Below, in pieces: positions 3,585 to 5,843 of a DNA stretch of 64,000 nucleotides. The translations under genes were made by a program, and so were the position numbers. Within the stretch, counting starts at the first letter, position 1. Each line of letters starts with the position of its first letter. Source of the DNA: Streptomyces sp. TLI_105 (GTDB taxonomy: Bacteria > Actinomycetota > Actinomycetes > Streptomycetales > Streptomycetaceae); the NCBI RefSeq assembly GCF_900105415.1, contig NZ_FNSM01000001.1, positions 3,262,501-3,326,500 on the forward strand, written 5' to 3'. The notes beneath the pieces were generated by a model that saw nothing but the letters and a program-made list of their open reading frames with translations, had not been told where the DNA came from and searched no databases.

Positions 3585-5177
3585 TTACTCCCACTCGATG
3601 GTGCCCGGCGGCTTGCTCGTGACGTCGAGGACGACACGGTTCACGTCGGCGACCTCGTTGGTGATGCGGGTCGAGATCTTGGCGAGCACCTCGTAGGGCA
3701 GGCGCGACCAGTCGGCCGTCATGGCGTCCTCGGAGGAGACGGGACGCAGCACGATCGGGTGACCGTAGGTGCGGCCGTCGCCCTGGACGCCCACGGAGCG
3801 GACGTCCGCGAGGAGGACGACCGGGCACTGCCAGATGTCGCGGTCGAGGCCGGCCGCGGTGAGCTCCTCGCGGGCGATGGCGTCGGCCTCGCGCAGCAGG
3901 TCCAGGCGCTCCTTGGTGACCTCGCCGACGATGCGGATGCCGAGGCCGGGGCCGGGGAACGGCTGGCGCTGGACGATCTCCTCGGGCAGGCCGAGCTCCT
4001 GGCCGACCATCCGGACCTCGTCCTTGAACAGCTGGCGCAGCGGCTCGACGAGCTCGAACTCGATGTCGTCGGGGAGGCCGCCCACGTTGTGGTGGGACTT
4101 GATGTTGGCCGTGCCGGTGCCGCCGCCGGACTCGACGATGTCCGGGTAGAGCGTGCCCTGGACGAGGAAGGCGACCTCGGGGCCCTCCTCCTGGAGGATC
4201 TCCAGCTGGGCCTGCTCGAAGACGCGGATGAACTCGCGGCCGATGATCTTCCGCTTGGTCTCCGGGTCGGAGACGCCGGCGAGCGCGTCGAGGAAGCGCT
4301 CCTGCGCGTCGACGACCTTCAGGTTGGCGCCGGTGGCGGCCACGAAGTCCTTCTCGACCTGCTCGGTCTCGCCCTTGCGCATCAGACCGTGGTCGACGTA
4401 GACGCAGGTGAGCTGCGAGCCGATGGCCTTCTGCACGAGCGCGGCGGCCACGGCGGAGTCGACGCCGCCGGAGAGACCGCAGATGGCGCGCTTGGTGCCG
4501 ACCTGGGCGCGGATGGCCGCGACCTGCTCCTCGATCACGTTGCCCGTGGTCCAGCTGGGCTCGATGCCGGCGCCGCGGTAGAGGAAGTGCTCGAGGATCT
4601 GCTGGCCGTGCGTGGAGTGCAGCACCTCGGGGTGGTACTGGACGCCGTACAGCTTCTTCTCGTCGTTCTCGAAGGCGGCGACCGGCACGACGTCCGTGGA
4701 GGCGGTGACGGTGAAGCCCTCGGGGGCGGCGGAGCAGGCGTCGCCGTGCGACATCCACACGGACTGCTCGACCGGGGTGCCCTCGAAGAGGGTGGAGCCG
4801 GCCTTGGAGACGTGCAGCGGGGTCCGGCCGTACTCGCGGGCGCCGGTGTTGTCGACGGTGCCACCGAGGGTCGTCGCCATCAGCTGGAAGCCGTAGCACA
4901 TGCCGAAGACGGGGACGCCCGCCTCGAAGAGCTCGCGGTCGAGGCGGGGGGCGCCCTCGGCGTACACGGAGGACGGGCCGCCGGAGAGGATGATCGCCTT
5001 CGGCTTCTTGGCCAGCATCTCGGCCACCGGCATGGTGGACGGGACGATCTCGCTGTAGACCCGCGCCTCACGGACGCGACGGGCGATGAGCTGGGCGTAC
5101 TGGGCGCCGAAGTCGACAACGAGGACTACGTCCGGGTTGGAGACGTCGGGCGCGGCAGCGGGAGTCGCTGATGACAC
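3585..5177 (-). CDS. guaA: GMP synthase (glutamine-hydrolysing)
   Basis: 530 aa. It converts XMP to GMP using glutamine and ATP, the last step of de novo guanine nucleotide synthesis, in the cytoplasm. The N-terminal class I amidotransferase domain shows the nucleophile in GMCYGFQLM (about residue 95) and the His-Glu pair in QYHPEVLH. The ATP pyrophosphatase domain has the PP-loop [12 protein letters not shown] (about 238-249). The C-terminal dimerisation domain ends in the usual KPPGTIEWE. The start is a GTG (GTGTCATCA) with GGAAGG upstream. guaB and guaB3, acting one step earlier, lie about 17 kb away. Transcription diverges from the chorismate mutase leader. Confidence 0.97.
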
Positions 5178-5296: not shown

Positions 5297-5327
5297 GAAT
5301 CTTTTCGTCTCACCATCCGAACCCGGG

Positions 5328-5358
5328 TTGTGACGGGGTGCACGAAGGGGGCCATACT
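5328..5358 (+). promoter_or_regulatory. promoter of the aromatic leader transcript
   Basis: TTGTGA (5328-5333) and CATACT (5353-5358) are separated by 19 bases. The -10 ends six bases before the ATG of the leader peptide at 5365, so the predicted start point is the A of that ATG and the mRNA is leaderless. Confidence 0.5.
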
Positions 5359-5364
5359 GTCGCC

Positions 5365-5436
5365 ATGCGCAAGCACCCGACCTTCGTCTTTACCTATGGC
5401 AACCGGCCCACCGGCTGCCATGGTCGTGCTGCTTGA
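5365..5436 (+). CDS. 23-residue leader peptide with Phe/Tyr codons upstream of chorismate mutase
   Basis: An open frame ATG to TGA reads MRKHPTFVFTYG followed by NRPTGCHGRAA. Codons 7, 9 and 11 are TTC, TTT and TAT; TTT and TAT are very rare in high-GC Streptomyces genes, so stalling at low charged Phe- or Tyr-tRNA is plausible. The frame starts exactly where transcription should start (leaderless). It is followed by a hairpin covering the end of the aromatic codons and then by a strong GC hairpin before the chorismate mutase gene. This is the architecture of an amino-acid attenuator. Function inferred; coding is supported by rare codons, promoter position and downstream gene identity. Confidence 0.6.
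   Translation: MRKHPTFVFTYGNRPTGCHGRAA
5396..5421 (+). promoter_or_regulatory. leader hairpin (possible pause or anti-terminator partner)
   Basis: ATGGCA pairs with TGCCAT, with CCGG/CCGG pairing inside around a short loop. It begins right after the Phe-Val-Phe-Thr-Tyr codons of the leader peptide, where a stalled ribosome would cover or free its left arm. Confidence 0.5.
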
Positions 5437-5461
5437 GCTACTGACAAGCGACTTCCCAGGC

Positions 5462-5486
5462 GCCCCGGGCCGACAAGGCCCGGGGC
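5462..5486 (+). terminator. intrinsic-type terminator/attenuator before chorismate mutase
   Basis: GCCCCGGGCC pairs perfectly with GGCCCGGGGC around a five-base loop (GACAA), followed by the T-containing stretch GTTCTGCTTGTCT. It lies between the leader peptide stop and the chorismate mutase start, so it would cut transcription before the enzyme gene unless prevented from forming. Confidence 0.65.
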
Positions 5487-5552
5487 GTTCTGCTTGTCTC
5501 CGGGCGATGTCGCCCCGGGGCTCCGGACCCGACACCACGAGGAGCCCCCGCC

Positions 5553-5843
5553 GTGACCACGAAGACCATCACCGAGCAGACCGGCGCCCGCACCGACGAG
5601 GCGGCGACGCTGATCGGCGACGCCCGCGAGCGCATCGACGCCCTCGACGACCGGATCATCGGCCTCATCCAGGAGCGGATGGCCATCTCGACCGTCATCC
5701 AGGAGGCCCGGATCTCCTCGGGCGGCCGCCGGGTGAACCTGGCCCGCGAGATGGAGGTCCTCGGCCACTACAGGGACGCGCTGGGCAAGCCGGGCACGGC
5801 GCTGGCGATGACGATGCTGGAGCTGTGCCGGGGCCGCATCTGA
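5553..5843 (+). CDS. chorismate mutase (AroQ type)
   Basis: 96 aa, all-helical AroQ class, length typical of stand-alone actinobacterial chorismate mutases. It converts chorismate to prephenate, the first committed step to Phe and Tyr. RERIDALDDRIIGLIQERM is the family helix 1, with the Arg and Asp positions used in the active site; VNLAREMEVLGHYR supplies further charged residues. GTG start with GAGGAG eight bases upstream. The gene follows a leader peptide rich in aromatic codons and a terminator hairpin, so it is likely regulated by attenuation. Confidence 0.9.
   Translation: MTTKTITEQTGARTDEAATLIGDARERIDALDDRIIGLIQERMAISTVIQEARISSGGRRVNLAREMEVLGHYRDALGKPGTALAMTMLELCRGRI

Follow-up and report, generated by a model that had tools for sequence, protein, structure and literature searches.

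A predicted leaderless Phe/Tyr leader peptide attenuator in front of chorismate mutase in Streptomyces and other actinobacteria

Introduction

Does the short open reading frame (ORF) that precedes the chorismate mutase gene of Streptomyces sp. TLI_105 adjust the enzyme to the supply of phenylalanine and tyrosine? The frame lies in a 64,000-nucleotide stretch of this genome (hereafter, the window), in which a first-pass annotation had read it as a leaderless leader peptide gene with a transcription attenuator. There are two known systems with which such an element can be compared. In Escherichia coli, the Phe leader peptide PheL is described as attenuating pheA, the gene of the chorismate mutase-prephenate dehydratase (PMC11802643). 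The window shares with pheL-pheA a leader peptide with Phe codons ahead of a chorismate mutase gene, but differs in that the leader is of the leaderless type and has Phe as well as Tyr codons, and in that the enzyme is a monofunctional AroQ protein. In Corynebacterium glutamicum, a leader with the residues Phe-Tyr-Phe, aroR, is described as controlling the DAHP synthase gene aroF (PMC11802643, PMC4046766), and a review credits it with a response to Phe but none to Tyr (PMC11802643). Like aroR, the window leader is an actinobacterial Phe/Tyr leader on an aromatic pathway gene, yet it stands before chorismate mutase rather than DAHP synthase; the likeness drawn here is based on published descriptions of aroR.

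Results

A leaderless-type frame with rare aromatic codons

The following features of the window describe the promoter, the leader frame and the gene behind it:

5328-5333, plus strand: possible -35 element TTGTGA, 19 nt upstream of the -10 element, from the sequence
5353-5358, plus strand: -10 element CATACT, followed by GTCGCC (5359-5364) and then the leader ATG
5365-5436, plus strand: leader peptide gene (MRKHPTFVFTYGNRPTGCHGRAA, then stop), 23 codons, ATG at 5365-5367, TGA at 5434-5436
5383-5397, plus strand: control codons TTC GTC TTT ACC TAT (Phe-x-Phe-x-Tyr), the second Phe and the Tyr constant in 97/97 distinct regions
5540-5544, plus strand: probable Shine-Dalgarno site AGGAG of the chorismate mutase gene, from the sequence
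5553-5843, plus strand: chorismate mutase gene (AroQ type, TIGR01808/NF005894), matching PF01817, with NF005894 and TIGR01808 above cut-off

Direct reading bore out what had been claimed for this frame, namely that it starts six bases after CATACT, that its codons 7, 9 and 11 are TTC (5383-5385), TTT (5389-5391) and TAT (5395-5397), and that chorismate mutase follows downstream. The codons thus match the end products of the controlled gene: Phe, Phe and Tyr before chorismate mutase. The supposed rarity of TTT and TAT was confirmed as well, as five ORFs of the window, with 67 Phe and 62 Tyr codons between them, use neither. On the other hand, the remark that a leaderless leader peptide would be unusual did not hold, since seven of the eight leader peptides in a transcriptome-based list for Streptomyces lividans TK24, which include trpL1, trpL2, leuL1, leuL2, ilvL, thrL and metL, are described as leaderless (PMC8079986). 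The window leader resembles these in combining an ORF that carries codons of the amino acid concerned with hairpins downstream; according to Table 4 of the same source, none of the eight is for Phe or Tyr and none stands before chorismate mutase.

The sequence suggests that transcription would start at the A of the leader ATG (5365). A generic sigma-70 scan did not detect the leader promoter. Nevertheless, a search that ignored reading frame found a -10-like hexamer 6 to 7 nt upstream of an in-frame start in 161/161 loci, one of which has an additional, out-of-frame start behind such a hexamer. These loci are what we kept, for starts and folds, out of 170, having dropped L167, L168, L176 and L199, in which a strict finder saw no hairpin, and L205, L209, L214, L215 and L221, whose codon pattern did not match. 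A TTG lies 16 to 19 nt upstream of the -10 element in 75/97 distinct Streptomyces regions, but it is scarce in the remaining sets (8/36 family loci, 2/15 others), such that the -35 element has no general conservation.

Upstream of the leader lies a divergent minus-strand ORF (3585-5177), which resembles guaA. Between this gene and the leader promoter we noticed TCTCACCATCCGAAC at 5308-5322; as TCTCACCATCCG followed by A or G, it is conserved in 80/110 Streptomyces loci, and in the genome of the strain one perfect copy and three single-mismatch copies occur. It may serve as a regulator site or belong to a promoter.

Elsewhere in the same genome, a search for further copies of the leader gave 11 matches at E <= 10, one of them full length and ten partial or antisense. 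Reading by eye, we saw no comparable leader upstream of the class II DAHP synthase, of two prephenate dehydratase matches or of the prephenate dehydrogenase gene. A further chorismate mutase gene of this genome (PF07736, AroH type; L235:1076-1441, near C1:6428729) adjoins the prephenate dehydrogenase gene on its upstream side, and no comparable leader was seen there by eye. Thus, the enzyme behind the leader is not the sole chorismate mutase of this strain.

Aromatic codons are constant throughout Streptomyces

Conservation of the leader codons was assessed in 110 Streptomyces loci collected through the enzyme protein, that is, free of selection by a leader model. They comprise 80 named records, one titled Microtetraspora, and 30 others including the window (L081), and correspond to 97 distinct regions, as 13 genomes were entered twice under two names. 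The oddly titled record, L004 (Microtetraspora glauca), has a typical Streptomyces leader, and its chorismate mutase shares 93% identity with the window enzyme; the title may be wrong.

All 110 loci (97 distinct) have the leader. Among the distinct regions, the -10 hexamer reads CATACT in 92 and TACACT in five, and is separated from the start codon by 6 nt in 79 and 7 nt in 18. Counting from the Tyr codon as 0, codon -4 (codon 7 of the window) encodes Phe in 91, Tyr in four and Ser in two regions; codon -2 (codon 9) encodes Phe in all 97, with TTT in 96; and codon 0 (codon 11) is TAT, for Tyr, in 97/97. By comparison with these, the codons in between and those toward the 5' end are variable. 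In L031, L059 and L079, a one-base shift after the aromatic codons changes the C-terminal part of the peptide, but the RNA is preserved and a stop codon still lies close by. We take the constancy of the aromatic codons, together with the retention of the RNA despite such frameshifts, to mean that selection keeps the aromatic codons and the RNA, and the conservation foreseen for many Streptomyces is therefore borne out in 97 distinct regions.

The same data bear on whether the frame might encode a small protein, or the terminated transcript act as a small RNA in trans, with read-through into the enzyme gene being incidental. A terminated transcript would be ∼130 nt long, and the attenuator leader peptide peTrpL is described as acting in trans in another bacterium (PMC7298713). 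However, the N-terminal codons vary, the C-terminus is frameshifted in the three loci named above, and what is kept are the aromatic codons and the competing helices described below. We consider this explanation barely credible as a replacement for attenuation, although a small protein or RNA may have an added role beside it.

Three mutually exclusive helices in computed folds

Computed folds of the region following the control codons divide it into these elements:

5396-5406, plus strand: region 1, 5' arm of a protector hairpin (AUGGCA.CCGG), from computed folds
5411-5423, plus strand: region 2 (CCGG.UGCC.UGG), pairing with region 1 (5411-5421) or with region 3 (antiterminator)
5431-5449, plus strand: inner stem GCUUG/CAAGC inside the antiterminator, from the fold, with some two-sided changes in columns 71-73 of alignment A2
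5456-5471, plus strand: region 3, in which the antiterminator 3' arm (5456-5468) overlaps the terminator 5' arm (5461-5471)
5477-5487, plus strand: region 4, the terminator 3' arm, followed by the tail TTCTGCTTGT; from the fold, covariation and the T tail

The free leader folds as hairpin 1:2 (5396-5421, AUGGCA.CCGG/CCGG.UGCCAU), just where a hairpin had been placed right after the aromatic codons, plus terminator 3:4, with a z score of -5.8. In the fold of a piece lacking region 1 and most of region 4 (5410-5480), region 2 instead pairs with region 3, with CCGG.UGCC.UGG facing CCA.GGCG..CCGG around GCUUG/CAAGC. As far as computed folds go, there are thus three mutually exclusive helices, 1:2, 2:3 and 3:4, as in a classical attenuator. 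The attenuation reading of the first-pass annotation is supported by this, but it needs the antiterminator (5411-5423 with 5456-5468), which had not been named. No match to any Rfam family, T-box or riboswitch reached the gathering score in the window, a lax threshold giving sub-threshold matches, and these candidates were rejected.

Both upstream helices exceed expectation beyond the window. The mean number of expected 1:2 pairs is 10.6 in Streptomyces (87 distinct sequences), 10.2 in the family set (36) and 6.5 in others (14), compared to 2.1 to 2.4 in shuffles; for 2:3, the respective values are 12.0, 13.6 and 9.5, compared to 4.2 to 5.0. Locus L190, in which the finder misplaced the terminator, was counted in this comparison but left out of alignment A2 and of the stall folds described below.

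A conserved and covarying terminator

The GC hairpin before the enzyme gene, put at 10 pairs (5462-5486) by the earlier reading, is present but has 11, pairing 5461-5471 with 5477-5487. Its T-containing tail was borne out, too: the 10 nt 3' of the terminator hold 5.2 T compared to a background of 1.4. A terminator scan requiring 5 T in 8 did not list the window hairpin.

As for covariation, alignment A1 was composed of 44 diversity-filtered loci of the 110 and the window (begun one base late), while A2 combined 22 Streptomyces loci chosen by hand with 35 family loci (57 sequences). Streptomyces alone yielded next to no covariation and was uninformative, the element being too invariant; hence, the covarying hairpins that had been anticipated became visible for the terminator, and with the wider family. 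Here, 8 of 15 terminator pairs show two-sided changes. The two-sided cells number 43, whereas shuffles give 11.4 and a slid helix gives no more than 11. Helix 1:2 is 93.2% paired and nearly invariant, with two two-sided cells. The antiterminator is 81.3% paired, compared to 29 to 51% when slid, and has 18 two-sided cells compared to 9.1 in shuffles, its count of covarying pairs not being above shuffles. The antiterminator signal is thus modest, and the structural argument draws on covariation for 3:4 and on thermodynamic consistency and positional logic for 1:2 and 2:3. With mean energies of -32 to -36 kcal/mol for the terminator and of -24 to -28 kcal/mol for folds that hold the antiterminator, the terminator is the stabler structure, which implies that antitermination must be kinetic.

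Control might instead act on translation, through a hairpin over the Shine-Dalgarno site of the enzyme gene. Positions 5517-5524 of the window (GGGGCTCC) can indeed pair with 5541-5548 (GGAGCCCC) over this site. Yet over 118 sequences the mean pairing of the site is 0.75 compared to 0.67 in shuffles (0.51 in the window), with 77/118 sequences above their own shuffles. We rejected Shine-Dalgarno sequestration as not clearly above shuffles, and what is strongly conserved instead is the terminator with its T tail, making translational control a very improbable account of this locus.

Control codons are predicted to be sited to release the antiterminator

We then asked where a ribosome would have to pause in order to free region 2, assuming that it covers 12 nt on the 5' side and 15 nt on the 3' side of the first P-site base. 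Under this assumption, antiterminator pairs in the window rise from 0.1 without a ribosome to 11.1 with one at the Tyr codon and 11.2 at the Phe codon. With the ribosome at the stop codon they amount to 0.0 or 3.0, the latter when more 5' sequence is folded. A scan along the window frame gave 1.1 to 3.3 pairs at codons -9 to -5, 11.2 at -4, 6.7 at -3, 11.2 at both -2 and -1, 10.8 at 0, 4.0 at +1, 1.5 at +2 and 0 to 3.0 beyond, the aromatic codons being -4, -2 and 0. Placing the ribosome on the Tyr codon increased 2:3 pairing over the free state in 86/87 Streptomyces and 35/35 family sequences.

The model is not equally sharp everywhere. The Streptomyces mean already stands at 5.8 to 6.2 at codons -9 to -5, compared to 1.8 in the free state, before reaching ∼10 at -4 and -3, 12 at -2 and -1, and 11.1 at codon 0, then falling to 2.4 at +2. 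In this model, stalling at the control codons places the ribosome over region 1 and leaves region 2 free.

Taken together, the leader very probably constitutes a ribosome-mediated transcription attenuator that would set chorismate mutase according to the charging of tRNA-Phe and tRNA-Tyr. This reading is based on sequence and computation (frame, codons, alternative helices, positional logic, conservation and terminator covariation), from which we infer transcription start, stalling, termination and amino acid response. Transcription would begin at the leader ATG, with a ribosome loading on the leaderless 5' end. With Phe and Tyr in ample supply, the ribosome would pass the aromatic codons and reach the TGA, where either it covers region 2 or 1:2 re-forms; in both cases, terminator 3:4 would form and transcription stop before the enzyme gene. 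Upon shortage of Phe or Tyr, the ribosome would stall on TTC, TTT or TAT with its footprint over region 1, allowing 2:3 to pair, such that the terminator would come too late and the enzyme gene be transcribed. Against attenuation speaks that there are only three aromatic codons, and that these are not consecutive. Moreover, codon changes in the leader of Streptomyces coelicolor ilvB are stated in PMC1262725 to have had no effect, a reminder that look-alike leaders can mislead.

The leader recurs in the family Streptomycetaceae

At E <= 0.01, a covariance model built on the Streptomyces leaders (R1) matched in 140/200 family genomes. All 17 genera are represented among these matches, the weakest of which may be partial. 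In the loci fetched, the leader could be read before chorismate mutase in 16 of the 17 genera, including that of the window. The seventeenth, g150, gave weak R1 matches only and an enzyme match in 0/12 genomes. In the class, R1 matched in 102/394 genomes, many of them through the terminator alone. Since it was a Streptomyces-derived model that retrieved the family, f17 and related sets, their conservation partly reflects how they were picked.

We looked at 36 family loci, 28 from other genera and eight divergent members of the same genus. Their N-termini differ, and the distance from the start to the Tyr codon varies from 24 to 39 nt, while Phe is found at codon -2 in 36/36, Tyr at codon 0 in 35/36, and Phe or Tyr at codon -4 in 23/36. 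Trp codons occur at +4 in 13/36 and at -3 in 3/36 of these loci, making a Trp response possible in a few species; stalling at +4 gave a mean of 1.8 antiterminator pairs.

Leaders of a similar type precede the enzyme in other families

Of 61 genomes from an order sampled around genome G668, 56 have this chorismate mutase. We examined the 450 nt upstream of 56 enzyme matches, 55 of them in genomes of the order and one in family f17, all located through the enzyme protein and hence free of selection by a leader model. The feature sought was a short ORF of the leaderless type in which some stretch of seven codons includes at least three aromatic ones. Forty of the 56 loci, in 14 families, have a leader by this rule, compared to 0/56 on the opposite strand and 0/560 in dinucleotide shuffles; the remaining 16 do not. 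The exact motif FFYGYR is present in 14 of the 40 leaders, FFYG in 26 and YG in 37, with Trp in one.

For folding, we used the 37/40 leaders with YG, 22 of which are followed by a hairpin of at least 9 pairs; an earlier, hand-picked set had 31/40 leaders, of which 20 were profiled. In the 22, the antiterminator averages 7.6 to 8.2 pairs with the ribosome at codons -2 to 0, 1.1 when free and 2.4 at the stop codon, and in 20/22 individual leaders a ribosome on codons -2 to 0 raises it above both the free and the stop state. In four loci of family f4 (L269, L271-L273), the chorismate mutase leader contains FFYGYR, and the GC hairpin behind it is imperfect and escaped the strict finder.

That F(T/S)YG in the family, and YG in 37/40 of these leaders, are conserved as peptides would also be expected of an arrest peptide. 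In that case, the nascent chain (F-x-F-T-Y-G or FFYG), possibly aided by a ligand, would itself halt the ribosome and throw the same RNA switch without any sensing of tRNA charging. We consider this highly unlikely. Phe and Tyr interchange at codon -4, and in three loci a frameshift alters the C-terminus. In addition, the Gly codon and the 3' half of the frame sit in regions 1 and 2, and their conservation can be ascribed to this position within the pairing regions.

Related leaders precede DAHP synthase genes

Tracing RNA model matches in the class, at E values of 1e-7 to 1e-3 per genome, led to leaders in front of another gene. In family f17, in which the enzyme was matched in 1/41 genomes at E <= 0.001, the RNA model found leaders of the type MQRNFWRFYGYRPVPRTVACKALR, ended by a stop codon, in 12 loci (L202-L204, L206-L208, L210-L213, L216 and L217). 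These leaders, which begin with MQRNFWRFYGYRP, have Phe, Trp, Phe, Tyr and Tyr codons (FWRFYGY), a TATAGT 7 nt before the start, and a terminator; L222, L223 and L225-L227 were grouped with them. Wherever tested, in five of these loci, the gene after an FWRFYGY leader is a DAHP synthase (TIGR01361 and NF006421 above cut-off; PF00793 and PF18152 for L222). DAHP synthases also follow the leaders of L224 (f17, MRNLVYFFRYDRPGRLVCQALR) and L228 (family f28). With a stalled ribosome, the antiterminator of the DAHP synthase leaders is higher than in the free state in 8/11 and higher than in the stop state in 10/11.

From the E values given above, we infer common descent, and not convergence, for the DAHP synthase and chorismate mutase leaders. 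Somewhat more tentatively, we lean toward an ancient, class-wide leaderless aromatic attenuator whose codons have been re-set according to the gene behind it, namely to Phe/Tyr for chorismate mutase and to Phe/Trp/Tyr for DAHP synthase in f17.

Discussion

The kind of attenuator proposed here is already known from pheL-pheA and aroR-aroF. The open-licence literature we searched yielded no report of this leader, and a comparative survey of actinobacteria states that it saw no conserved RNA structures ahead of phenylalanine or tyrosine operons (PMC1262725). The more interesting part, to us, is the breadth of the distribution together with the codon set of the DAHP synthase leaders. If the common origin outlined above is true, the FWRFYGY leader would on its own sense Phe, Trp and Tyr where the aromatic pathway begins. 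If the attenuator works as proposed, it would place the Phe/Tyr branch of Streptomyces and many other actinobacteria under end-product control, offer a target for raising the supply of aromatic antibiotic precursors, and constitute a natural series in which to study how leader codons evolve to fit the gene they control.
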